This document shows, piece by piece, positions 1 to 10,613 of a DNA stretch of 10,613 nucleotides. The stretch spans positions 1-10,613 of the forward strand of contig JAHEGL010000137.1 in NCBI GenBank assembly GCA_024645145.1, read 5' to 3'. How positions within the stretch are numbered: position 1 is the first letter of the stretch; the number at the start of each line of letters is the position of its first letter. Below the pieces are notes generated by a model. It was not told where the DNA came from, searched no databases, and saw nothing but the letters and a program-made list of their open reading frames with translations. The translations under genes were made by a program, and so were the position numbers. Source of the DNA: Planktotalea sp. (lineage in GTDB: Bacteria > Pseudomonadota > Alphaproteobacteria > Rhodobacterales > Rhodobacteraceae).

Positions 1-815
1 TTTGCCATAGGCTTGCCGAGGGTGACGATGTCAGGGGTTACGCCCATTTTTTCATGCGCCCACATGTGTGTACCGACACGTCCAAAGCCTGATTGCACCT
101 CGTCACAGATCAACAAGCCACCTGCCTTGCGCACAACATCAGATACGGGTTTGAGCCAGCCATCCGTGTTATCTGGGAAACCTTCGTTCAGGAAATAAGG
201 GCAGATTAGTAACGCTGCGAAACCTGTGCCTGATGTTTCGTGTTCAGCGATCTGTTGGGCCACGTTGTTTGCAAAAATTGTACCGTCAGGATCGTAGGCG
301 CGGTAGCTATCAGGGGCATCGACAAAGCGAAAATACTGCTCAAGACCGAAGCCGACTGTAGGGACATTGCTTTGGCTGAGTTGGCTCACAAGGGATGTGT
401 TGCCATGATAGGTTGCATCGGTTGTGATGATGCCGCGCTTACCTGTTAGGGCTTCGGCCATGCGCAAGGCGATGTCGTTGGCTTCAGAACCTGTACAAGT
501 CACTATTGCGCTGTTTAGAGACTGATTCATCGTCGCTGTTAGACGTTCGATGTAGTCAAGGATGCCATCGTGCAGATAGCGTGTATGGGTGTTGAGCGTG
601 CTGGCTTGGCGATGGATCGCGTCCACGACGCGTTGATTGCAATGACCGACGTGGGGGACGTTGTTGTAGCAATCAAGGTATTTGCGTCCGTCTGCATCCC
701 AGAGCCAGACGCCTTCACCTTTCACGAAATGAACGGGGTCATCGTAAAAGGTTGCAACGTTCGGGCCCATAAGGCGGGCCCGATCTTTGATGAGTTGATC
801 TTTGAAGCGTGTCAC
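1..815 (-). CDS. Class III PLP-dependent aminotransferase, ETNPPL/AGXT2L-like (partial, C-terminus outside window)
   Basis: Reading the minus strand from a GTG at 813-815 gives 271 uninterrupted codons before the left edge, so the C-terminal third is missing. The N-terminal region has LDCYNNVPHVGH and LNTHTRYLHD, patterns I associate with the ethanolamine-phosphate phospho-lyase/alanine-glyoxylate-2-like branch of class III aminotransferases. The PLP-binding aspartate lies in LLICDEVQSGFGR, and the Schiff-base lysine is probably K268 in VTLGKPMA, almost at the edge. The GTG overlaps the TGA of the upstream aminotransferase as GTGA, which implies translational coupling. A later ATG (codon 16) is possible but loses the coupling. 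No N-terminal kinase domain precedes it, unlike some fused relatives. Class III enzymes transfer or eliminate amino groups from omega-amines or amino acids. The substrate cannot be read from the sequence; a lyase instead of a transaminase is possible. Gene assignment is firm, substrate unknown. Confidence 0.87.
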   Translation of the reverse strand, partial: MTRFKDQLIKDRARLMGPNVATFYDDPVHFVKGEGVWLWDADGRKYLDCYNNVPHVGHCNQRVVDAIHRQASTLNTHTRYLHDGILDYIERLTATMNQSLNSAIVTCTGSEANDIALRMAEALTGKRGIITTDATYHGNTSLVSQLSQSNVPTVGFGLEQYFRFVDAPDSYRAYDPDGTIFANNVAQQIAEHETSGTGFAALLICPYFLNEGFPDNTDGWLKPVSDVVRKAGGLLICDEVQSGFGRVGTHMWAHEKMGVTPDIVTLGKPMA

Positions 816-2158
816 GCTGCTTTAAAGCCCGCTTCGATGCCATTAAGAAGCGTTTGTGCATCTGCTTCGCTTAGCACCAATGAGGGCGAAAGGATCAAGT
901 TAGGGCCTGATACGCGCACCATTGCACCGTTGTCATAGGCCGTATCTTGGACGACTTGTGCACGGCCTGCATCGACCGGCTTTTTAGTGGCACGGTCTGA
1001 AACCATTTCGATTGCGGTCATCAGGCCATGGCCGCCACGCACATCCCCGATGATGTCGTATTTCTCTTTAAGAGCGAGGCAGCCCTCATAGAGCTGCGTG
1101 CCACGTGCAGCGGCGTTTTCGATGACGTTCAAACGTTTGGTTTCTGTAAGACAGGCAAGCGCGGCGGCGGCACCAACGGGGTGACCGGAGTATGTATAAC
1201 CGTGACCGATTTTAGCGTTTGGATTGTCCTCGAATGTTTTGACCATCCGCTCACCGAGCATGACGGCGCCGAAAGGAAAGTAGCCATTGGTGATCGCCTT
1301 GGCAGTGGCCATCATGTCAGGCTTGATCCCCCAAAGACGCGCGCCGGACCATGCGCCCGTCCGACCGTATGCGGTGATGACTTCATCGGTGATCAACAGG
1401 ATGCCATTGCGGTTGCAGATCTCTTGTACCATCGGCGCGAAAGACTTGTGTGGCGGGATAACCCCGCCTGCGCCAAGGATGGGTTCCATGATCATCGCGG
1501 CGATGGTGTTAGCGCCTTGGAATGCGATTTCATCCTCAAGCGCCTGCGCGCAGAGCTGAGCGAGCTTTTCAGGATCGGTTTCATTGAAAGGATTGCGATA
1601 TGTGTAGGGGGCCGGAATGTGGAAACAGCCGGGCAAGAGCGGTTCATACGCGGTGCGGAAGTTCGCGTTGCCGTTGACCGATGCGCCGCCCATGTGGGTG
1701 CCGTGATAGCCTTTCTTGAGGCTCAGAAACTTGGTGCGCCCATGTTCGCCGCGCAGTTTGTGGTACTGCCGTGCGAGGCGCAGAGCTGTTTCAACGGAAT
1801 CGGACCCACCTGAGGTAAAGAATGCGCGGCTCAACCCGTCGGGCGCGAAAAATTCACTAAGCTCGTAGGCCAGTTCGATGGCCACATCATTGGTCGTGCC
1901 GCGAAACGTTGAATAGTAGGGTAGGGTGTCAAGCTGCGCTGCCATCGCGTCTTTGATGGGCTGGCAAGAGTAACCAAGGTTAACGTTCCACAGACCACCG
2001 ACGCCATCGACAACGCTGTGACCGTCGATATCTGTGATGCTGACGCCGTCTGCGCCCGTGATAATCTTGGGTGGATTTTCAGCGCTGTCCTGTGGGGAGG
2101 TCATAGGGTGCCACATCTGGCGCGCGTTGTTCTCTTTCAAAAAGTTGGAGTCTTTCAT
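812..2158 (-). CDS. Class III omega-aminotransferase (pyruvate-dependent omega-amine type)
   Basis: This 448-residue protein is full length for the omega-amino acid/amine:pyruvate transaminase group. Visible landmarks are GLWNVNLGY (residues 55-63, with the tryptophan typical of omega-transaminases), FTSGGSDSVETA for PLP phosphate binding (114-125), KKGYHG with the ring-stacking tyrosine Y151, the PLP aspartate D258 in LLITDEV, the Schiff-base lysine K287 in TAKAITNG, and a C-terminal arginine (R374) in GDVRGGHG. I chose the ATG at 2156-2158 because the protein then begins at the usual family N-terminus, MKDSNFLKENNARQMWHPM. An in-frame ATG at 2236 would add 26 unrelated residues and run into the intergenic palindrome. 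The family moves the amino group of a primary amine (putrescine, beta-alanine, arylethylamines) to pyruvate, leaving an aldehyde. The divergent aldehyde dehydrogenase is the natural next enzyme. Putrescine/GABA-type amines are the conservative substrate; tyramine or dopamine is inferred from the hpa context. Confidence 0.93.
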   Translation of the reverse strand: MKDSNFLKENNARQMWHPMTSPQDSAENPPKIITGADGVSITDIDGHSVVDGVGGLWNVNLGYSCQPIKDAMAAQLDTLPYYSTFRGTTNDVAIELAYELSEFFAPDGLSRAFFTSGGSDSVETALRLARQYHKLRGEHGRTKFLSLKKGYHGTHMGGASVNGNANFRTAYEPLLPGCFHIPAPYTYRNPFNETDPEKLAQLCAQALEDEIAFQGANTIAAMIMEPILGAGGVIPPHKSFAPMVQEICNRNGILLITDEVITAYGRTGAWSGARLWGIKPDMMATAKAITNGYFPFGAVMLGERMVKTFEDNPNAKIGHGYTYSGHPVGAAAALACLTETKRLNVIENAAARGTQLYEGCLALKEKYDIIGDVRGGHGLMTAIEMVSDRATKKPVDAGRAQVVQDTAYDNGAMVRVSGPNLILSPSLVLSEADAQTLLNGIEAGFKAA

Positions 2159-2191
2159 GGTACGGTGTCCAATATGTGGGGTGTTTTTCAA

Positions 2192-2220
2192 ATTTTGACA
2201 GAGTACGTCAGTTAGGACAA
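2192..2220 (-). promoter_or_regulatory. Possible promoter for the two aminotransferases
   Basis: On the minus strand, TTGTCC (plus positions 2215-2220) and CAAAAT (2192-2197) each match four of six bases of the sigma-70 -35 and -10 boxes, with 17 bp between them. This would start transcription about 25-30 bases before the ATG at 2158 and would place the inverted repeat at 2235-2257 just upstream of the -35 box, where an activator could bind. Matches of this quality occur by chance, so this is tentative. Confidence 0.25.
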
Positions 2221-2234
2221 TATGTTTTTGAACC

Positions 2235-2257
2235 ATCGGTTCTATATGTGAACCGAT
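2235..2257. promoter_or_regulatory. Perfect 8+8 bp inverted repeat, candidate operator of the divergent aminotransferase/aldehyde dehydrogenase genes
   Basis: ATCGGTTC (2235-2242) and GAACCGAT (2250-2257) are exact reverse complements separated by a 7-base AT-rich spacer. Two more GAACC half-sites flank it, at 2230-2234 and 2273-2277. The first of these also pairs with GGTTC at 2238-2242 across a 3-base spacer. The site sits in the 177-base gap between divergent genes, which is typical for a dimeric regulator controlling both. No regulator gene adjoins these two transcription units apart from hpaR, whose own putative operator looks different. The binding protein is unknown. Confidence 0.6.
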
Positions 2258-2270
2258 TTCGAATTAGCTG

Positions 2271-2302
2271 TTGAACCTTAGGCATGTTCGGCGGTCTATA
2301 AG
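2271..2302 (+). promoter_or_regulatory. Possible promoter of the aldehyde dehydrogenase gene
   Basis: TTGAAC (2271-2276) resembles a -35 box, and TCTATA/TATAAG (2295-2302) lies 18-20 bp downstream as a -10 candidate. The -35 box overlaps the last GAACC half-site at 2273-2277, so a protein bound there would compete with RNA polymerase. The spacing is slightly long, and this is a visual match only. Confidence 0.3.
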
Positions 2303-2335
2303 CTAAATGGGCAAAGCTCGGCCAAGGGGAAAAAG

Positions 2336-3820
2336 ATGGATCAGACCAAGATTGACGCATTGCGCGCACAACCAGTTGCGACGCGCACGCATATCATCAA
2401 CGGCAAACACGTGCCTGCGTCTGATGGGAGTCTGATGGATATTCTATCCCCTATTGATGGGCAGGTGTTGACGCAAACGGCCAAAGGCACCGTGCAAGAT
2501 ATGAACGCTGCGATCAAAGCGGCGCGCGACGCTTTTGAGGACAAGCGATGGGCTGGCCAAGCGCCTGCTGCGCGTAAAAAGGTTTTGATGAAATGGGCTG
2601 ATTTGATCGAAGCGCATGCGTTGGAGCTGGCCGTATTGGGCGTGCGCGACAATGGCACAGAAATTAACATGGCGATCAAAGCAGAGCCGGGCAGTGCCGC
2701 TGGTACGATCCGCTATTATGCGGAAGCTTTGGACAAGATTTATGGTGAGATCGCGGCCACGCCATCTGACATTTTAGGAATGATCCATAAGGAGCCTGTT
2801 GGCGTTGTTGGTGCGATTATTCCTTGGAACTTCCCGATGATGATCGGTGCTTGGAAGCTGGGACCTGCGCTGGCGATGGGCAATTCTGTTGTCTTGAAAC
2901 CATCTGAAACTGCATCTTTGTCGCTGATGCGCATGGTGGAGCTGGCGCATGCGGCGGGATTGCCTGATGGCGTGTTGAACGCAGTGACGGGTGAGGGCGC
3001 AGTTGTCGGCGAAGCGATGGGTTTGTCGATGGATGTTGATGTGTTGGTCTTTACCGGATCGGGGGGCACGGGTCGTCGTTTGATGGAATATGCTGCGCGT
3101 TCTAACATGAAGCGGGTCTATCTGGAGCTGGGCGGGAAATCCCCAAACGTGATTTTTGCCGATGCGCCGAATTTAGCGGAGGCTGCGCAGGTCGCCGCTG
3201 GTGGAATTTTTCGCAATTCCGGACAGGTCTGTGTGGCTGGATCCCGGCTTTTGGTGGAAGCGTCTATTCACGACGCGTTTGTCGCTGAGGTCGCGAAGGC
3301 AAGCAGTGCAATGAAAGTTGGGGATCCGTTGGATTTGGGAACCGCGATTGGGGCTGTGAATTCGGAAATTCAGCTTAAGCAAAACCTTGAGTTTGTTGAA
3401 ACAGCGCGCGCTGAGGGCGGTGATGTTGTTTTAGGCGGCAGTCGTATTTTGCAAGAGACGGGGGGCTATTATATGGCACCGACGATTGTGACTGGGGTAA
3501 CAGCAGAAGCGACGTTGACCCAAAAAGAAGTGTTTGGACCTGTGCTGGGTGTCACTGCTTTCGATAGCGAAGAAGGGGCGGTGAGATTGGCCAACGCAAC
3601 TGTATACGGGCTTGCGGGTGCTGTTTGGACGTCGAACCTAAGCCGTGCACATCGTATGGTGCGCGAGATCAAAACAGGCGTGATGCATGTGAATACATAC
3701 GGCGGTGCAGATGGGACTGTGCCGCTGGGCGGCGTGGGGCAATCGGGCAATGGCAGCGATAAATCGCTTCATGCGATTGAGAAGTACATCAACCTTAAGA
3801 CCGCTTGGATCAAGCTTTAG
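2336..3820 (+). CDS. NAD(P)-dependent aldehyde dehydrogenase, PuuC-like
   Basis: This 494-residue protein has the full aldehyde dehydrogenase fold and all catalytic positions: N165 in IPWNFP, the cofactor-binding lysine K188 in LKPSE, the general base E264 in LELGGKS, the nucleophile C299 in NSGQVCV, and E398 in KEVFGP. The ending, KSLHAIEKYINLKTAWIKL, resembles the C-terminus of gamma-glutamyl-gamma-aminobutyraldehyde dehydrogenase PuuC and related broad-range enzymes. The ATG is preceded by a strong ribosome site, AAGGGGA, at 2324-2330. It oxidises an aldehyde to the acid in the cytoplasm. Divergent transcription from an omega-aminotransferase suggests it takes the aldehyde made by that enzyme. 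In this setting 4-hydroxyphenylacetaldehyde or 3,4-dihydroxyphenylacetaldehyde is an attractive substrate, and succinic semialdehyde released by HpaI is another. The exact substrate is not visible. Its last 11 bases overlap the end of hpaR tail to tail. Confidence 0.93.
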   Translation: MDQTKIDALRAQPVATRTHIINGKHVPASDGSLMDILSPIDGQVLTQTAKGTVQDMNAAIKAARDAFEDKRWAGQAPAARKKVLMKWADLIEAHALELAVLGVRDNGTEINMAIKAEPGSAAGTIRYYAEALDKIYGEIAATPSDILGMIHKEPVGVVGAIIPWNFPMMIGAWKLGPALAMGNSVVLKPSETASLSLMRMVELAHAAGLPDGVLNAVTGEGAVVGEAMGLSMDVDVLVFTGSGGTGRRLMEYAARSNMKRVYLELGGKSPNVIFADAPNLAEAAQVAAGGIFRNSGQVCVAGSRLLVEASIHDAFVAEVAKASSAMKVGDPLDLGTAIGAVNSEIQLKQNLEFVETARAEGGDVVLGGSRILQETGGYYMAPTIVTGVTAEATLTQKEVFGPVLGVTAFDSEEGAVRLANATVYGLAGAVWTSNLSRAHRMVREIKTGVMHVNTYGGADGTVPLGGVGQSGNGSDKSLHAIEKYINLKTAWIKL

Positions 3821-4256
3821 AAGGCTTGCTTCCAGGGTCTAACTGTTCGAGCAAATCGAGCAGTGTTTCATAGTTTTCATCGCCTAAAGTTTTGCGAAAC
3901 TCAGCAACGATCTGCGCTGCTGGCTCGGCATATTCATCGATTATTTTCTGGCCCTTGTCAGTGATTTTGATGAACTGTCGCCGCCTGTCTACGCTATCTC
4001 GTGTTTGGGTAATGAGCCCTTTGCTGCGCATGGTTGTTGCGATGCGCGTCAGGCTTGGGAAGAGCAGGGAAGCGCGACTGGCCAATGTTGAAGTGTCCAG
4101 TGCGCCAAATTCACTTAGCACGCGCAGAACGCGCCATTGTTGTTCCGTGATGCCGGTTTCTGCGAGCATTTCGCGAATCGGTGACATTGCGCCTTCGCGG
4201 GCGCGGATGAGCGCGATCGGAAGAGAACGCGAGGTGCTGGGCAATTGAGATGACAT
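3810..4256 (-). CDS. hpaR: HpaR, MarR-family repressor of the homoprotocatechuate operon
   Basis: This is a 148-residue MarR-type winged helix protein. The N-terminal LPIALIRAREGAMSPIREML and TEQQWRVLRVL (38-48) closely follow E. coli HpaR as I remember it. Residues about 62-79 (SLLFPSLTRIATTM) form the recognition-helix region, and TRDSVDRRRQFIKIT (85-99) is the wing. I chose the ATG at 4254-4256: it has AGGCG upstream and begins at the family N-terminus, whereas the in-frame ATG at 4361 would overlap divergent hpaF and its promoter. HpaR homologues repress the hpa ring-cleavage genes and are relieved by aromatic acids such as 4-hydroxyphenylacetate or homoprotocatechuate. Position opposite hpaF is the expected one. 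The palindromes in the shared gap are the likely operators. Its 3' end overlaps the convergent aldehyde dehydrogenase gene by 11 bases, leaving no room for a dedicated terminator. Confidence 0.92.
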   Translation of the reverse strand: MSSQLPSTSRSLPIALIRAREGAMSPIREMLAETGITEQQWRVLRVLSEFGALDTSTLASRASLLFPSLTRIATTMRSKGLITQTRDSVDRRRQFIKITDKGQKIIDEYAEPAAQIVAEFRKTLGDENYETLLDLLEQLDPGSKPSKA

Positions 4257-4301
4257 AACACGCCTGTTTTGCACGAAGGTTTCGAAGCTGCCAAGTGATG
4301 C

Positions 4302-4329
4302 TTGACAAAGGTGCCTCAGTTTAATTAAT
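4302..4329 (+). promoter_or_regulatory. Putative promoter of the hpaF operon
   Basis: TTGACA at 4302-4307 is a perfect -35 consensus. ATTAAT at 4324-4329, 16 bp downstream, matches four of six bases of the -10 consensus. Transcription would start near 4336-4340, just before the hpaF ribosome site. The -10 region overlaps the first TTAA palindrome, consistent with repression by HpaR. Seen by eye, not tested. Confidence 0.5.
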
Positions 4330-4351
4330 TTAGCAATATTTAACATGTTAA
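4321..4351. promoter_or_regulatory. Paired TTAA palindromes, candidate HpaR operators
   Basis: TTAATTAA (4321-4328) and TTAACATGTTAA (4340-4351) are both perfect palindromes with TTAA ends. Their centres lie 21 bp apart, two helical turns, so two dimers could bind the same DNA face. The first covers the -10 region and the second the likely transcription start and the edge of the ribosome site. AT-rich palindromes at this position are typical MarR-family operators. HpaR as the ligand is inferred from adjacency. Confidence 0.5.
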
Positions 4352-4354
4352 GGA
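4350..4354 (+). promoter_or_regulatory. hpaF: Ribosome binding site that fixes the hpaF start
   Basis: AAGGA lies five bases before the ATG at 4360. An in-frame ATG at 4345 lies upstream of this site and within the palindrome, so it is not the start. Confidence 0.75.
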
Positions 4355-4359
4355 ATATC

Positions 4360-4749
4360 ATGCCACATTTTCACATCGAATATTCGGCGAACCTTGAAGA
4401 GGTGGTAGATGTTGGCGCGCTGTGCGAAGCTATTCGCGCTGAAGCGGTGCAGATTGATGCGTTTCCTTTGGCAGGTGTGCGTGTACGCGCTACGCGTGTT
4501 GACCACTATGCAATTGCCGATGGTAACGCCAAGCACGGGTTTATCGATCTTTCGATCCGCCTGCGCGAAGGGCGTTCGCAGGATGTAAAGTCAGATAGCA
4601 TCACGCGCATTTTCGCGACGCTCAAGAGCTTTATGTCAGAAGCCTTGGGCACGCATTCCATAGCACTTTCTGCAGAGATACGTGACATTGATGCGTCTTT
4701 GTCCCCGAAATTTGGCACGATTAGAGATCATTTGGAGACCCCTTCATGA
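4360..4749 (+). CDS. hpaF: HpaF, 5-carboxymethyl-2-hydroxymuconate delta-isomerase
   Basis: This small 129-residue enzyme of the tautomerase superfamily converts 5-carboxymethyl-2-hydroxymuconate to its 2-oxo-3-ene isomer (OPET), the substrate for HpaG. The family uses the N-terminal proline exposed after methionine removal as catalytic base. Starting at 4360 gives MPHFHIEYS, placing that proline second, so biochemistry and the ribosome site agree on this start. FPLAGVR (35-41) and GRS (71-73) carry R41 and R72, which line up with arginines 40 and 71 of the mature E. coli enzyme. Length agrees with the E. coli protein (about 126 residues). It is the first gene of the operon, divergent from hpaR, and its TGA overlaps the hpaE ATG as ATGA. 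Confidence 0.92.
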   Translation: MPHFHIEYSANLEEVVDVGALCEAIRAEAVQIDAFPLAGVRVRATRVDHYAIADGNAKHGFIDLSIRLREGRSQDVKSDSITRIFATLKSFMSEALGTHSIALSAEIRDIDASLSPKFGTIRDHLETPS

Positions 4750-6257
4750 GCAGCCTTGATGACAATATTGCAAAGCTGAACGGCTTTTTAGAGCGTTTTA
4801 AAAGCGGTGGCATTCAGAACCGGATTGCTGGGCAGGATGTTGCTGGTTCCGGCGGCGTCTTTCAGGCGCATTCACCTGTGGATAAGTCGCTGATTTGCGA
4901 TGTCGCACATGGGACAGCAGAAGATATCGATGCGGCGGCAAACGCGGCGTCTGATGCATTTGCAGAGTGGCGCGATATGCCTGCGCTTCAGCGTAAGAAG
5001 ATCTTGATCAAGGTCGCGGAAGGGATCGAGGCGCGCGCAGAAGAGATTGCTTTGTGCGAATGCTGGGACACTGGCCAAGCGTTGAAATTCATGTCCAAAG
5101 CGGCGCTGCGCGGGGCTGAAAACTTCCGCTATTTCGCGGATCAGGTTGTGCAAGCGCGCGATGGACAGCATTTGCAATCTCCAACGCTGATGAATGTCAC
5201 CATGCGCAAGCCGATTGGCCCGGTTGGGGTGATCACCCCTTGGAATACGCCATTCATGCTCTCTACTTGGAAGATTGCGCCAGCGCTCGCTGCGGGTTGT
5301 ACTGTGGTTCATAAGCCCGCCGAAGCATCGCCGCTGACAGCGCGTCTTTTGGTTGAGATCGCTGAAGAGGCAGGTTTGCCACCCGGTGTTCTGAACACTG
5401 TGAATGGATTTGGTGAGGGCGCGGGTAAAGCGCTGTGTGAACATCCCAAGATCAAGGCGATTGCCTTTGTGGGCGAAAGTTCGACAGGTTCGCTGATCAC
5501 CAAGCAAGGCGCGGATACATTGAAGCGCAATCACTTGGAGCTGGGCGGCAAGAACCCTGTGATTGTCTTTGATGATGCGGATCTTGAGCGCGCTTTGGAT
5601 GCTGTCATTTTCATGATCTATTCGATTAATGGCGAGCGTTGCACATCGTCTTCACGGCTTTTGGTTCAGGATACAATTCGCGAAGAGTTTGAGGCGAAAC
5701 TGGTCGAGCGTGTGAACAACATCAAAGTTGGTCATCCACTGGATCCTGCGACTGAAATTGGCCCGCTTGTGACGGAAGAACACTTCAACAAGGTGACCAG
5801 CTATTTCGACATCGCGAAAGCGGATGGTGCAAAGGTCGCTGCTGGCGGCGAGGTTGTTGGCGATGAGGGGTATTTTGTGCGTCCAACGCTTTTCACCAAT
5901 GCAAACAACGATATGCGGATCGCTCAGGAAGAGATTTTTGGCCCTGTGCTCACGTCGATCCCGTTCACCACTGAGGAAGAGGCGCTGCAAATCGCGAATG
6001 ACACAAACTACGGTTTGACCGGGTATGTGTGGACCAATGATCTAACGCGCGCGCTGCGCTTTACCGAGGCGTTAGAGGCAGGCATGATCTGGGTGAATTC
6101 CGAGAATGTGCGTCACCTGCCCACGCCGTTTGGCGGGGTCAAAGCCAGCGGTATCGGCCGCGATGGCGGCGACTGGTCTTTCGAATTCTACATGGAGCAA
6201 AAGCACATCGGCTTTGCGACAGGTCAACATAAAATCACTAAACTAGGAGCGCTCTGA
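4746..6257 (+). CDS. hpaE: HpaE, 5-carboxymethyl-2-hydroxymuconate semialdehyde dehydrogenase
   Basis: This 503-residue aldehyde dehydrogenase oxidises the ring-cleavage product 5-carboxymethyl-2-hydroxymuconate semialdehyde to the dicarboxylate with NAD. Catalytic positions are N167 in TPWNTP, K190 in VHKPAE, E265 in LELGGKN, C299 in NGERCTSSSR and E396 in EEIFGP. The NGERCT nucleophile motif, with Glu-Arg before Cys and Thr after, is characteristic of the HpaE/hydroxymuconic semialdehyde branch and differs from the GQVCV of the other dehydrogenase in this window. An N-terminal extension of about 25 residues precedes the NAD-binding domain, as usual for HpaE. Its ATG overlaps the hpaF stop by four bases, and its TGA shares one base with the hpaD ATG, so the first three genes are probably translated as a coupled set. 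Confidence 0.95.
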   Translation: MSSLDDNIAKLNGFLERFKSGGIQNRIAGQDVAGSGGVFQAHSPVDKSLICDVAHGTAEDIDAAANAASDAFAEWRDMPALQRKKILIKVAEGIEARAEEIALCECWDTGQALKFMSKAALRGAENFRYFADQVVQARDGQHLQSPTLMNVTMRKPIGPVGVITPWNTPFMLSTWKIAPALAAGCTVVHKPAEASPLTARLLVEIAEEAGLPPGVLNTVNGFGEGAGKALCEHPKIKAIAFVGESSTGSLITKQGADTLKRNHLELGGKNPVIVFDDADLERALDAVIFMIYSINGERCTSSSRLLVQDTIREEFEAKLVERVNNIKVGHPLDPATEIGPLVTEEHFNKVTSYFDIAKADGAKVAAGGEVVGDEGYFVRPTLFTNANNDMRIAQEEIFGPVLTSIPFTTEEEALQIANDTNYGLTGYVWTNDLTRALRFTEALEAGMIWVNSENVRHLPTPFGGVKASGIGRDGGDWSFEFYMEQKHIGFATGQHKITKLGAL

Positions 6258-7240
6258 TGCCAGTTCCAACACCCAATCTTTATCCTGATTTCAACACGAT
6301 CCGCTTGAGCCATGCCTGCTTGAATGTGAAAGATCTTGCCGCGTCCAAGGAGTTTTACACTAATATTCTGGGCCTTCAGGTCACAGATGAAAATGACACA
6401 CATGTGTATCTGCGCGCCATGGAAGAACGTGGTCATCACTGCGTTATTTTGCAAAAATCTGATCAACCCGGCACGGTCGAGGTGATGGGTTTCAAAACAT
6501 TTGATGAGGATGACCTTGATAAAGCCGAGGTCTATTTCAAAGGCAAAGGGCGTCCCACGTCTTGGGTGGATCGTCCCCATCAGGGCCGTACTTTGCTGAC
6601 CTCGGACAACATGGGAATTCCGCTGGAATTTTACCACAAGATGGATCGTCTTGAGCCAATTCATCAGAAATATGCGCTTTATCGCGGGGTAAAGCCGCTT
6701 CGGATAGATCACTTTAATTGCTTTAGTCACGATGTAGATGAATCTGTAGCGTTCTATTCTGATTTCGGTTTTCGCGTGACGGAATACACAGAGGATGATG
6801 AGAGCAAAAAGGTTTGGGCAGCGTGGATGCATCGCAAAGGCGGCGTGCATGATATGGCCTTTACTAATGGCACTGGTCCGCGGATGCATCACATTGCGTT
6901 CTGGGTGCCTACACCGCTCAACATCATTGATTTGCTCGATCTGATGGCGACCACTGGACATGTGGATAACATTGAGCGTGGTCCTGGACGGCACGGCATT
7001 TCCAATGCGTTCTTCCTCTACATTTTGGATCCGGATGGTCACCGCATTGAGATTTACTGCTCTGATTACCAAACAGTTGATCCAGATATGGAGCCGATCA
7101 AATGGGACTTGCAGGATCCACAGCGTCAAACGCTTTGGGGGGCTGCTGCGCCGCGCAGCTGGTTTGAACACGGCACTAAATTTGTTGGCGTGGACACGAA
7201 AGATTCCCAGATCGCGGCTAGCCCGATCATAGCGCCATAA
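6257..7240 (+). CDS. hpaD: HpaD, 3,4-dihydroxyphenylacetate 2,3-dioxygenase, vicinal oxygen chelate (type I extradiol) form
   Basis: This 327-residue extradiol dioxygenase opens homoprotocatechuate between C2 and C3. It has two vicinal-oxygen-chelate modules (about 15-130 and 148-270). Compared with Brevibacterium fuscum HPCD, the metal ligands are H152, H212 and E265, and second-sphere or substrate residues N154, W190, H198, R241, H246, Y255 and R290 are all present with a constant offset of two or three. It should therefore be active with Fe(II) or Mn(II). E. coli HpaD/HpcB does the same reaction with an unrelated LigB-type protein, so the symbol reflects function and not descent. The start ATG shares one base with the hpaE TGA, and AGGAG at 6245-6249 supports it. 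The C-terminal tail after residue 270 is the lid extension typical of this subfamily. Confidence 0.94.
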   Translation: MPVPTPNLYPDFNTIRLSHACLNVKDLAASKEFYTNILGLQVTDENDTHVYLRAMEERGHHCVILQKSDQPGTVEVMGFKTFDEDDLDKAEVYFKGKGRPTSWVDRPHQGRTLLTSDNMGIPLEFYHKMDRLEPIHQKYALYRGVKPLRIDHFNCFSHDVDESVAFYSDFGFRVTEYTEDDESKKVWAAWMHRKGGVHDMAFTNGTGPRMHHIAFWVPTPLNIIDLLDLMATTGHVDNIERGPGRHGISNAFFLYILDPDGHRIEIYCSDYQTVDPDMEPIKWDLQDPQRQTLWGAAAPRSWFEHGTKFVGVDTKDSQIAASPIIAP

Positions 7241-7248: not shown

Positions 7249-7254
7249 CATTTG

Positions 7255-8652
7255 ATGGATTGGGACGAATACGCCCATTGGGGCAAGAAAATCGCTGATT
7301 GGAGCGCGGAGTACCATAAGGGACTTCGTGACCAGCCTGTGCGCGCGCAAACCGCTTATGGTGAGATTGCTGCGCAACTTCCTAAAGCGCCACCCGAGGG
7401 TGGTGAGCAGATGGAAGCGATCATGGCGGACTTTGAGGATATCGTGATGCCGGGGATCAGCCATTGGCAACACCCGCGTTTCTTCGCCTATTTCAATTCC
7501 AACGCTGCGGCACCCTCGATGCTGGCAGAGCTATTGGTCACGACCATCGCCGCACAGTGCATGCTATGGCAGACGTCACCCGCCGCAACCGAAGTTGAGG
7601 GCGTGATGATCGACTGGCTGCGCCAAGCGATGGGTCTGCAAGAGGGCTATACAGGCGTTATTCAAGATAGCGCGTCGTCGGCGACGTTGTCTGCGGTGCT
7701 GACAATGCGTGAACGTGCGCTTGGTTATACGGGCAATCAGGATGGGTTGAACGGGAAAGGCAATTTGCGGATTTATTGTTCCGAGCAGGTTCACTCTTCG
7801 ATTGATCGCGCGTGCTGGGTTGCGGGCATTGGTCAGGCGAATTTGGTAAAGATCGCAGGCACTGGTGAGCGGTTCAGCATGGCGGCAGATGCCCTTCAGG
7901 CAGCGATTGATGCAGACCGCGCAGCAGGGCATACGCCTGCGGGCATTATCGCGATTACGGGCGGTACTGGGATTGGTGCGTGCGATGATCTGGGCGCGAT
8001 TTTGCGCGTTGCGCAGGCTGAGGATCTTTACACACATCTTGATGCCGCATGGGCGGGCGCTGCGATGATAGTGCCGGAGTTTCAGCAAGACTTTTGGGCT
8101 GATGTGAATGGCTACGACAGTATTGTGTTTAACCCGCACAAATGGCTTGGCGCGAATTTTGATTGTTCGGTTCAGTTCTTGCGGGATGCGCAGCCGCAGC
8201 TCAACACGCTGAAAATCGAGCCTGAGTATCTCAAGACCACGGGTGAAACTGTGGTGAACTATTCCGAATGGACAATCCCGCTGGGGCGCCGTTTCCGTGC
8301 GCTTAAACTGTGGTTTTTGATCCGCTCTTATGGGCTTGAAGGGTTGCGAACGCGTATCCGCAACCATGTACTTTGGGCAGGTGAGTTGTGCGACGCGTTG
8401 CGCGGTTTGGACGGGTTTGAAATTGTGACGGAACCCATTCTGAGCCTGTTTTCATTCCGCTGCCCGGGCGATGATGACATGCAACAGCGCCTTGTTGATG
8501 CGATCAATGATGATGGCCGTATCTACATCACACAAGGGGCATTTGACGGGCGGAAAATCATCCGATTTACAGTGGGTCAATTCGATACGACACGCGACGA
8601 TGTTATGATGGCGCACAGCGTTATCGAAGAAGTGTGGGAGACACTGTCATGA
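7255..8652 (+). CDS. Group II PLP-dependent aromatic-L-amino-acid (DOPA/tyrosine-type) decarboxylase
   Basis: This 465-residue protein belongs to the group II PLP decarboxylases. Landmarks are SPAATEVEGVMIDW (108-121), H180 in EQVHSSIDRA (stacks on PLP), D263 in HLDAAWAG (binds the pyridine nitrogen) and the Schiff-base lysine K296 in NPHKW. After these comes IPLGRRFRALKLWFLIRSYG, nearly the same as in animal DOPA decarboxylase. Y325 in EPEYLK aligns with catalytic Tyr332 of human DOPA decarboxylase, 29 residues after the lysine in both. Retaining this tyrosine and H180 predicts simple decarboxylation and not aldehyde synthase activity. The product would be tyramine, dopamine or a similar amine plus CO2. 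It lies between hpaD and hpaG, 14 bases after hpaD and overlapping hpaG by ATGA, so it belongs to the operon. It has no step in the classical homoprotocatechuate pathway. I infer that it feeds amines to the neighbouring aminotransferase and dehydrogenase. Tryptophan, phenylalanine or another amino acid cannot be excluded. Confidence 0.9.
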   Translation: MDWDEYAHWGKKIADWSAEYHKGLRDQPVRAQTAYGEIAAQLPKAPPEGGEQMEAIMADFEDIVMPGISHWQHPRFFAYFNSNAAAPSMLAELLVTTIAAQCMLWQTSPAATEVEGVMIDWLRQAMGLQEGYTGVIQDSASSATLSAVLTMRERALGYTGNQDGLNGKGNLRIYCSEQVHSSIDRACWVAGIGQANLVKIAGTGERFSMAADALQAAIDADRAAGHTPAGIIAITGGTGIGACDDLGAILRVAQAEDLYTHLDAAWAGAAMIVPEFQQDFWADVNGYDSIVFNPHKWLGANFDCSVQFLRDAQPQLNTLKIEPEYLKTTGETVVNYSEWTIPLGRRFRALKLWFLIRSYGLEGLRTRIRNHVLWAGELCDALRGLDGFEIVTEPILSLFSFRCPGDDDMQQRLVDAINDDGRIYITQGAFDGRKIIRFTVGQFDTTRDDVMMAHSVIEEVWETLS

Positions 8653-9506
8653 ATTTTGCGAGCTTTTCATCTGGTGGAGAGAGTTTTTACGGCGCCGTTG
8701 CTGACGGCGGCATGGTCGCGCTGAACGCGGTTTGCCCACAATGGCCAACGCTGCTGGACGTGATTGAGGCGGGCGCCTTGGATGAGCTGGAAAACGTCGC
8801 CGCAGGGCGACCTGTCACGCATGAAGATTTCGAATTTGAGATGGTACTTCCCAATGCCAAGCGCATTCTTTGTGTGGGTGTCAATTTTCCAGATCGCAAC
8901 GCAGAATATAAAGACGGCACTACAGAAGCGCCGAAATATATGTCGCTGTTTCCGCGTTTCGTCAGCGGTTTTACAGGGCATAATCGCCCCCTGATCCGGC
9001 CTCCTGAAAACGAAACGCTCGATTATGAGGGTGAAGTCGCGATTGTTATTGGCAAAGGTGGACGGCGCATTGCGCAAGCAGATGCGTATGACCACATCGC
9101 GGCGATTACGATCTGCAATGAAGGCACAATTCGCGATTGGGTGCGTCATGCGAAATTCAACGTCACGCAAGGCAAGAACTGGGACCGCTCTGCTGCGATA
9201 GGCCCTTGGTTGGTGCCGTTCAAAGATGCGAGCCAGCTTGATGACGCGCGCATTATCACGCGGGTCAATGGGGAGGTGCGCCAAGATGATGTGCTTAGTC
9301 GAATGATGCATCCGATCCGCCGTGAGATTGAATATATCTCCACCTTTATGACGCTTCAGCCGGGCGACGTTATCGTTACGGGAACGCCCACTGGGGCAGG
9401 TGCGCGTTTTGATCCGCCACGCTATCTCAAGCCCGGTGATGTGGTTGAGGTTGAGGTTAATGGCATTGGCACGCTTGTAAACACTGTGGAAGATGAAGTG
9501 GTATGA
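8649..9506 (+). CDS. hpaG: HpaG, single-domain fumarylacetoacetase-family OPET decarboxylase/HHDD isomerase
   Basis: This 285-residue member of the fumarylacetoacetate hydrolase family probably decarboxylates 5-oxopent-3-ene-1,2,5-tricarboxylate and isomerises the resulting 2-hydroxyhepta-2,4-diene-1,7-dioate. A short N-terminal cap (1-65) precedes the catalytic fold. Metal ligands are E127 and E129 in LDYEGEV and an acidic residue in ICNEGTIRDW, where E158 stands at the usual aspartate position. K176 in TQGKNWD, GPWLV and VTGTPTGAG complete the active site. E. coli HpaG is a tandem of two such domains (about 430 residues), whereas this protein has one. The ATG at 8649 overlaps the decarboxylase stop, and GGGAG at 8636-8640 is a fair ribosome site. 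A GTG at 8634 is less likely. Context is what identifies the substrate, since the family also includes fumarylpyruvate and acylpyruvate hydrolases. Confidence 0.88.
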   Translation: MNFASFSSGGESFYGAVADGGMVALNAVCPQWPTLLDVIEAGALDELENVAAGRPVTHEDFEFEMVLPNAKRILCVGVNFPDRNAEYKDGTTEAPKYMSLFPRFVSGFTGHNRPLIRPPENETLDYEGEVAIVIGKGGRRIAQADAYDHIAAITICNEGTIRDWVRHAKFNVTQGKNWDRSAAIGPWLVPFKDASQLDDARIITRVNGEVRQDDVLSRMMHPIRREIEYISTFMTLQPGDVIVTGTPTGAGARFDPPRYLKPGDVVEVEVNGIGTLVNTVEDEVV

Positions 9507-10303
9507 ACGAAAGCGATCATGCACAAGCCGCGGCAGATTTGCTGGCTGCGGAGAGCTCTGGTGCGCAGATTGGTTTGCTTACGCTAAAGCATCCTGAGAT
9601 GGGTATGGATGACGCTTACGCGGTGCAAAACGCGATCTATCGCGCGAAGCTGGCGCAGGGCCGCAAGGTGGTTGGTTGGAAGATCGGACTGACCTCTAAA
9701 GCGATGCAATATGCGCTGAATATTGATATTCCTGACAGCGGTATCTTGTTCGATGATATGGTTTTTGAACATGGCGCAACTGTGCCTAAAGGGCGCTTTA
9801 TCCAACCGCGGATTGAGGCGGAAATTGCTTTTGTGATGAAGTCCTCCATCGGGGGTGCAGATGTGACGCGCGATGATGTGTTGGCCGCAACGGACTATGT
9901 TGCCCCCTCTATCGAGATCCTTGATACACGTATTTTGCGCGCTGATCCTGAAACCGGTGTGACGCGCAAAGTCTATGACACAATCAGTGACAATGCCGCC
10001 AATGCTGGCGTTGTTCTGGGTGACAAGCAACACAAGGTCGATGCGTTCGATCTGCGCTGGGTTGGCGCGATCACCTCGCGTAATGGCGAGGTTGAAGAGA
10101 CAGGGCTTGGGGCAGGGGTCTTGAACGATCCTGTGGAAAGCGTTGTCTGGCTTGCGCAGCGTATGGCGCAATATGGACAAAGCATTGAGCCTGGTCAGAT
10201 CATTCTGTCGGGCAGTTTCATTCGCCCCGTTGAGTGCCCCAGTGGCACAGATATTCATGCAGACTTCGGCGCGTTTGGATGCGTTGATATTTCATTTGCT
10301 TAG
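9503..10303 (+). CDS. hpaH: HpaH, 2-oxohept-4-ene-1,7-dioate hydratase
   Basis: This 266-residue hydratase matches the length of E. coli HpaH/HpcG (267). It adds water to 2-oxohept-4-ene-1,7-dioate to form 4-hydroxy-2-oxoheptanedioate. The divalent metal ligands are E105 and E107 in QPRIEAEIAF and E138 in APSIEIL, one residue earlier than the E106/E108/E139 set of HpcG. K60 in GWKIGLTS is the conserved active-site lysine, and SGSFIRPVECPSGTDIHADFG closes the fold. The protein belongs to the same broad hydratase/decarboxylase family as MhpD and DmpE, and the operon settles which substrate it takes. Its ATG overlaps the hpaG stop as ATGA, and hpaI follows after a 12-base gap. Confidence 0.94.
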   Translation: MNESDHAQAAADLLAAESSGAQIGLLTLKHPEMGMDDAYAVQNAIYRAKLAQGRKVVGWKIGLTSKAMQYALNIDIPDSGILFDDMVFEHGATVPKGRFIQPRIEAEIAFVMKSSIGGADVTRDDVLAATDYVAPSIEILDTRILRADPETGVTRKVYDTISDNAANAGVVLGDKQHKVDAFDLRWVGAITSRNGEVEETGLGAGVLNDPVESVVWLAQRMAQYGQSIEPGQIILSGSFIRPVECPSGTDIHADFGAFGCVDISFA

Positions 10304-10315
10304 GGAGTTCCGCTC

Positions 10316-10613
10316 ATGCCTGCACCACACAATCCGTTCAAACATGCCATCAACAATGGAGAGCTGCAGGTGGGCTGTTGGCTAGGCCTTGCGGATGCTT
10401 ACGTGGCAGAGATCAGCGCGAGTGCTGGATTCGATTGGGTCTGTGTGGATGGGGAACATTCGCCCAATGACCTACGCTCGATCATGGCGCAATTGCAGGT
10501 ATTAAATGGCAGCAACACCCATGCGATGGTGCGGCCGCCTGTAGGGGATACCGCGTTGATCAAGCAATACTTGGACGCGGGCGCGCAATCGCTTTTGATC
10601 CCAATGGTGGAGA
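10316..10613 (+). CDS. hpaI: HpaI, 4-hydroxy-2-oxoheptanedioate aldolase (partial, cut by right edge)
   Basis: Only the first 99 codons are present. They read as a class II, metal-dependent pyruvate aldolase of the HpcH/HpaI family, which splits 4-hydroxy-2-oxoheptanedioate into pyruvate and succinic semialdehyde, the last step of the pathway. Recognisable segments are VGCWLGLADAYVAEISASAGFDW (by position 19-41), VDGEHSPND with catalytic H48 and MVRPP with R73; these match H45 and R70 of E. coli HpaI with a constant shift of three. ALIKQYLDAGAQSLLIPMV follows. AGGGAG at 10302-10307 is the ribosome site. The metal-binding Glu and Asp residues lie beyond the window. Family members include YfaU-like rhamnonate aldolases, but position after hpaH makes HpaI the clear choice. 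Confidence 0.92.
   Translation, partial: MPAPHNPFKHAINNGELQVGCWLGLADAYVAEISASAGFDWVCVDGEHSPNDLRSIMAQLQVLNGSNTHAMVRPPVGDTALIKQYLDAGAQSLLIPMVE

Follow-up and report, generated by a model that had tools for sequence, protein, structure and literature searches.

The stretch of DNA analysed here (the window) covers positions 1-10,613 of contig JAHEGL010000137.1 of Planktotalea sp., contig 493 of a 532-contig assembly (G000) that is 83% complete. It carries a gene cluster for homoprotocatechuate ring cleavage (hpa) in which the gene of a group II pyridoxal phosphate (PLP)-dependent decarboxylase, called DC below, lies between hpaD and hpaG. We consider it rather probable that DC opens an arylethylamine branch of the homoprotocatechuate pathway, the substrates and reactions of this branch all being predicted. 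According to this proposal, (i) DC as the entry enzyme would decarboxylate an aromatic L-amino acid, most likely L-3,4-dihydroxyphenylalanine (L-DOPA), to the amine (dopamine); (ii) a transaminase of the window, AT2, would convert the amine to an arylacetaldehyde by transamination; (iii) an aldehyde dehydrogenase would turn the arylacetaldehyde into 3,4-dihydroxyphenylacetate (homoprotocatechuate); and (iv) HpaD, HpaE, HpaF, HpaG, HpaH and HpaI would lead from 3,4-dihydroxyphenylacetate to pyruvate and succinic semialdehyde. The analysis shows the genes with their homologies together with the recurring position of DC, a four-base junction with hpaG, co-occurrence and an operator-like site, and it is because of these last four that DC is tied to the hpa pathway. 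Taken singly, the steps are similar to known ones; the novelty is their assembly, which is a variant of a known pathway type.

An earlier note on this DNA had described a complete group II PLP decarboxylase between hpaD and hpaG, overlapping hpaG by four bases, and this description was borne out by the open reading frame (ORF), the PF00282 match and the hpaG ATG at 8649. Its further claim, an unusual entry of aromatic amino acids into the pathway by decarboxylation, stands in part. Gene neighbourhood and co-occurrence support such an entry, to which the junction, the operator-like site, the decarboxylase residues, and the transaminase and aldehyde dehydrogenase of the window can be added; the arrangement is no one-off, however, since it is widespread and not singular. 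The aldehyde dehydrogenase, AT1 and AT2 were absent from that note's account of the locus. The genes of the window are:

3..815, minus strand: AT1, phospho-lyase-like class III enzyme, truncated at the window and contig end (PDB 5g4i phospholyase 213 bits, 6tor 183 bits)
812..2236, minus strand: AT2, class III omega-transaminase, candidate arylethylamine transaminase (NF005683 722 bits, cut-off 575; probable start near 2158)
2336..3820, plus strand: aldehyde dehydrogenase (PuuC/KauB-like), candidate arylacetaldehyde dehydrogenase (PF00171; best PDB matches 6b4r, KauB, 517 bits and 5iuu 501 bits)
3810..4256, minus strand: hpaR, MarR-type regulator (TIGR02337 133 bits, cut-off 121; ORF listed to 4361, likely start 4256)
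4360..4749, plus strand: hpaF, 5-carboxymethyl-2-hydroxymuconate (CHM) isomerase (PF02962 128 bits; ORF listed from 4345, probable ATG 4360)
4746..6257, plus strand: hpaE, CHM semialdehyde (CHMS) dehydrogenase (TIGR02299 764 bits, cut-off 638)
6257..7240, plus strand: hpaD, 3,4-dihydroxyphenylacetate 2,3-dioxygenase (TIGR02295 412 bits, cut-off 321)
7255..8652, plus strand: DC, group II PLP (aromatic amino acid type) decarboxylase, 465 amino acids (PF00282)
8649..9506, plus strand: hpaG, single FAA-hydrolase domain, 285 amino acids (PF01557 210 bits; TIGR02303 160 bits, below the cut-off of 276)
9503..10303, plus strand: hpaH, hydratase (TIGR02312 382 bits, cut-off 351.5)
10316..10612, plus strand: hpaI, aldolase, truncated at the window end (named from its position and from matches in relatives)

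The DC ORF counts 465 amino acids from the ATG at 7255 (the mechanical ORF list begins at a TTG at 7252). With 294 bits against PF00282 (cut-off 27) and the corresponding fold, it belongs to the group II PLP decarboxylase family, which the databases name inconsistently (aromatic-L-amino-acid decarboxylase, pyridoxal-dependent decarboxylase, aspartate aminotransferase family). The best PDB sequence match is 7xin, annotated as a DOPA decarboxylase (351 bits, 39% identity over 455 columns), and 7xin is also the best structure match (VIA-align) of the AlphaFold2 model, whose mean predicted local distance difference test score (pLDDT) is 85.3. Chance or artefact was ruled out as a source of the gene: three independent records from close relatives show DC in the same frame and with the same neighbours, at 90-91% identity. 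Residues were compared in an alignment of the window DC with 125 other members (71 hpa-linked, 13 part-linked and 41 solo), using the numbering of human DOPA decarboxylase (DDC), and three codons stand out:

7792..7794, plus strand: codon of His180 (human DDC H192), the proton donor according to PMC6411801; H in 125/125 other members
8140..8142, plus strand: codon of Lys296 (human DDC K303), the PLP lysine; K in 125/125 other members
8227..8229, plus strand: codon of Tyr325 (human DDC Y332), the loop tyrosine that marks decarboxylases versus plant-type aldehyde synthases (residue alignment)

Lys303, His192, Asp271, Thr246 and the loop Tyr332 (human numbering) are all found in the window DC, 5/5, as in aromatic amino acid decarboxylases, and the equivalent of Tyr332 is a tyrosine in 70/71 hpa-linked, 12/13 part-linked and 38/41 solo members. 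DC is thus a complete group II PLP decarboxylase whose catalytic residues are intact. These same positions bear on another activity, in which DC would convert the amino acid straight to the arylacetaldehyde, the amine being skipped. According to PMC6411801, related plant and insect enzymes do so, with a Phe in place of the loop Tyr (plants) or an Asn in place of His192 (insects) as markers, and such a product would suit the pathway. His192 is kept without exception, Tyr332 is kept in the window and in 120/125 other members, and AT2 would be needless; an identity of DC as aromatic acetaldehyde synthase was ruled out on residues, both Tyr325 and His180 being present, and we regard this direct route as very improbable.

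The TGA of DC (8650-8652) overlaps the hpaG ATG at 8649 by four bases:

8649..8652, plus strand: ATGA, overlap of the DC stop and the hpaG start (read from the sequence)

This ATGA ends DC in 64/75 fetched loci with hpaG downstream versus 11/60 without, where the count considers the last four bases of DC and not the start of hpaG, and some of the rows are copies of one genome. Gene labels came from a simple longest-ORF caller that at times takes frames on the wrong strand; the placement counts given here are from tblastn. Among the 80 closest loci (the best 80 of more than 571, biased to close relatives), DC lies between hpaD/E and hpaG in 53, so that the position recurs in relatives, which the earlier note had proposed to survey; hpaD/E is found upstream only in 3/80 (two of them near a contig end) and hpaI only in 1/80. 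The DC family is also present on Rhizobiaceae plasmids, and in 7/10 plasmid loci, hand-picked from 30 listed, DC is again between hpaD/E and hpaG. A fairer placement rate comes from a survey of 120 genomes of the family, one per genus. DC was found in 55/120 at a cut-off of at least 49% identity (70 genomes gave a match of any strength, and the 15 weaker ones among them were dropped), and surroundings were fetched for 45 of these 55, the window's included and G069 giving two loci. In the 45 survey loci other than the window, DC is between hpaD/E and hpaG in 15 and has hpaD upstream in 1.

Across the 120 genomes, DC is present in 39/45 with hpaE versus 16/75 without. The AT2 family shows an even tighter tie, with 41/45 versus 9/75. 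These statistics take one genome per genus with phylogeny uncorrected, the E-value cut-offs being 1e-180 for hpaE, 1e-150 for AT2 and 1e-150 for AT1 (36 of 52 listed, plus the truncated copy of the window), and hpaE calls were limited in many genomes to the 12 best aldehyde dehydrogenase candidates.

The fourth line of evidence is an operator-like site between hpaR and hpaF:

4340..4351, no strand: palindrome TTAACATGTTAA, 12 bases, candidate HpaR operator

The perfect palindrome occurs once in the window and 0 times in shuffled sequences. Its recurrence was scored within two mismatches in the 260 bases upstream of hpaF and the 250 bases upstream of other genes, the DC start being set by a rule of thumb. 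It was found upstream of hpaF in 55/71 loci versus 15/1067 control upstream regions, and from this position it can be considered a candidate HpaR operator. Before DC inside the operon it was found in 0/78 cases. Before a detached DC (near hpaI, hpaR, the upper module with AT2, AT1 and the aldehyde dehydrogenase, or a single hpa gene) it was found in 8/14 loci, compared with 2/43 solo loci; 5 of these 8 detached loci form one clade, and in L102 (loci are numbered L, genomes G) the palindrome, located between hpaR and DC, may belong to hpaR itself.

The nature of the amino acid was approached through HpaB, with which the 4-hydroxyphenylacetate pathway can begin. HpaB is found in 14/120 genomes and in 7/45 with hpaE, with no association (p 0.38); it is present in 3/10 genomes examined, those of L002, L003 and L004 being without a match, and G000, at 83% completeness, gave no PF03241 (HpaB) match. 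The lack of association with hpaE and of a match in the L002-L004 genomes speaks for an amino acid in which the catechol is already present, and L-DOPA is therefore the likeliest predicted substrate of DC.

Several observations weigh against this reading of DC as the entry enzyme of an L-DOPA-fed branch. At the ring-contact positions, DC differs from the DOPA decarboxylases of animals and P. putida: human I101 is replaced by Q and F103 by M in 71/71 hpa-linked members, and T82, whose hydroxyl contacts the catechol in the animal enzymes, by A in 57/71, the window DC having a Ser. The alanine would suit a tyrosine/tyramine branch, in which DC would yield tyramine, AT2 and the dehydrogenase would convert this to 4-hydroxyphenylacetate, and a ring hydroxylase whose gene lies at another site would produce homoprotocatechuate. 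In one hpa cluster (L126 = G111), HpaB is a neighbour of AT2; G000 has seven long matches to PF01494 (FAD_binding_3), a broad family that also has matches in 14/14 control genomes, and an FAD_binding_3 gene lies near hpa in L087, so that a lack of HpaB does not exclude monophenol input. Given the Ser of the window DC and the scarcity of HpaB described above, we judge the tyramine branch unlikely.

Other points concern placement. No hpa D/E/G/H/I gene adjoins DC in 23/80 closest loci (some cut by contig ends) or in 20/45 survey loci, where a further 9 have hpaI only; DC is within 4 kb of hpaE in just 16/55 DC genomes of the survey, the window's included; and 6/45 hpaE genomes are without DC. 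Among the closest loci, the genomes of 22 solo DC genes were searchable (L061 was left out, and several are metagenome-assembled genomes, in which absence is soft): hpaE was found in 8/22 and not in 14/22, from which it follows that DC can serve elsewhere, and AT2 in 4/22. In a DC tree of 139 rows, hpa-linked and unlinked genes are mixed, with at least 12 changes on well-supported branches, and 14 unlinked rows form one clade. The loci without hpa neighbours, this all-solo clade and the solo genomes without hpaE would be expected if DC were a passenger whose amine serves another purpose, its operon position being incidental in some lineages. The co-occurrence of DC with hpaE, the operator-like site before detached DC and the ATGA bias toward loci with hpaG downstream speak against this, and we give the passenger explanation a small chance, slightly below that of the tyramine branch.

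The upper module adds its own difficulties. The palindrome was found before AT2 in 0/27 and before the aldehyde dehydrogenase in 0/28 cases, and before its other genes in 0/7 (APH), 1/10 (AT1) and 2/25 (UPF0261); control of the upper module by the palindrome was therefore set aside, and the module seems to be regulated apart. A second AT2-like transaminase, 64% identical, is encoded on contig 285 of the same genome (G000:C285:12606-13958), and the role of AT2 could therefore be shared. Finally, AT1 is weakly tied to hpaE (23/45 versus 14/75).

The upper module of the window lies on the far side of hpaR, where the aldehyde dehydrogenase, closest to KauB (6b4r) and 5iuu, is divergent from AT2 and AT1, these two overlapping each other by 4 bases. 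AT2 is closest to omega-transaminases (5lh9, 429 bits). AT1 is different: the window fragment reaches 213 bits with 5g4i and 183 bits with 6tor (ethanolamine-phosphate phospho-lyase), the next family being at 96, and by this proximity to characterised phospho-lyases, not transaminases, it is a predicted amino alcohol phosphate phospho-lyase. In Planktotalea frisia (L002), among the closest relatives, an APH-like gene, AT1 and AT2 form one run with 4-base overlaps (the APH/AT1 region being L002:422-2628), and the APH-like gene is 42% identical to one of Shinella that matches PF01636. Among 8 Rhizobiaceae plasmid loci, 5 (L147, L150-L153) carry AT2, an APH gene and the hpa genes on one stretch, AT1 being labelled in 4 of these 5, and two (L149 and L154) are without AT2 and the APH gene; in L147 (3041-5340), L151, L152 and L153 the APH-like gene follows AT1, and AT2 belongs to this run as well. 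In Shinella L146, the neighbours of DC are a phosphotransferase, AT1, AT2, a HAD hydrolase, UPF0261 and an aldehyde dehydrogenase, and no annotated hpa gene is found within 9 kb.

The wide margin by which AT1 resembles phospho-lyases, together with its kinase-like neighbour in L002 and the Rhizobiaceae, would suit an explanation that overlaps with our own, in which DC also or mainly yields, from beta-hydroxylated aromatic amino acids, arylethanolamines (octopamine or noradrenaline type) that the kinase and AT1 would lead to the same arylacetaldehyde. The tie of AT1 to hpaE is weak, as is that to DC (24/37 versus 31/83), and any kinase of the window cluster would lie past the window and contig end; beta-hydroxylated substrates of DC appear about as doubtful as tyramine. 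Somewhat less doubtful, and still tentative, is a general catecholamine/phenolamine degradation system with two converging arms, DC and AT2 for non-hydroxylated amines, an APH-type kinase and the AT1 phospho-lyase for beta-hydroxylated ones (octopamine, noradrenaline); in the second arm the phosphate would be eliminated with ammonia and the arylacetaldehyde formed directly. In the titles and abstract openings listed by searches of openly licensed PubMed Central papers, we found neither a bacterial kinase plus phospho-lyase route for these neuroactive amines nor a decarboxylase inside an hpa operon.

Known systems resemble parts of the proposed arylethylamine branch. The DOPA decarboxylase PP_2552 of P. 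putida KT2440 and PDB 7xin, a Pseudomonas DOPA decarboxylase, which represent bacterial members of the animal/plant-type family, are like DC in fold and catalytic residues and differ in the pocket (L101/L103/S82 versus Q/M/S in DC). The 3,4-dihydroxyphenylacetate catabolon of Pseudomonas putida U, reportedly described by Arcos in 2010, is said to serve for tyramine and dopamine. Arylethylamines likewise feed 3,4-dihydroxyphenylacetate there; unlike it, the window has a decarboxylase in the ring-cleavage operon, and a transaminase is predicted for the amine step. The PDB sequences nearest to AT1, 5g4i (the phospholyase of Arthrobacter aurescens) and 6tor, differ from AT1 in context, AT1 being accompanied by hpa genes and AT2 and, in relatives, by an APH-like kinase. 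The classical hpa operon (E. coli W; A. baumannii TH, PMC12718150) has homologues of hpaR, F, E, D, G, H and I in common with the window, whereas the window adds DC and has a one-domain hpaG, and 38/45 hpaE genomes have no HpaB match.

If the proposed branch is true, an animal-type decarboxylase would be placed in a catabolic pathway, a large and inconsistently named decarboxylase family would receive a substrate hypothesis, and marine Rhodobacteraceae and some rhizobia would have a testable genetic basis for feeding on DOPA- or tyrosine-derived amines. Plausible sources of such amines are algae, mussel adhesives and legume exudates.

Concerning the hpa cluster itself, HpaR, HpaE, HpaD and HpaH are all above their NCBIfam equivalog cut-offs, and HpaF passes the Pfam cut-off for CHM isomerase (CHMI) and misses the NCBIfam one. 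An R. leguminosarum relative of the window hpaI is annotated hpaI. For hpaG, the ORF caller chose an in-frame GTG at 8634 (290 amino acids) rather than the ATG at 8649 (285 amino acids). The window HpaG is not of the bifunctional two-domain E. coli type, having one FAA-hydrolase domain and scoring below the HpaG N- and C-terminal cut-offs. DC as the supplier of the decarboxylation missing from a one-domain HpaG was ruled out on chemistry, because the HpaG decarboxylation substrate offers PLP no amino group. No tRNA and no Rfam match at gathering scores was found in the window, and scans for promoters and terminators in 2200-4800 yielded no excess over shuffled sequence.

Some further gene arrangements were noted in the relatives. 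An FAA-hydrolase gene adjoins the solo DC of L008, and a second homoprotocatechuate dioxygenase, of LigB type (TIGR02298), occurs in hpa clusters, often next to hpaD (L054:5690-6544 and 12 other loci). A split layout, with DC and hpaI together and without hpaE, is seen in L098, L101-L106, L109, L110, L114 and L030, and hpaE was not found in the genome of L101 (G097). UPF0261 (Tm-1-like) and HAD-IA hydrolase genes travel with the upper module (L146:6512-8418, L147:1-1660). A set of three genes, for a cytochrome P450, a glutamine-synthetase-like enzyme and a class I amidotransferase, is repeatedly found, complete or incomplete, near DC-hpaI or hpa clusters (L005-L007, L044, L067, L098, L109, L110, L114 and L128) and might be a gamma-glutamylation branch for amines. 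The palindrome, within two mismatches, precedes the P450 gene in 3/12 and the amidotransferase gene in 3/9 cases, all of them in L005-L007.
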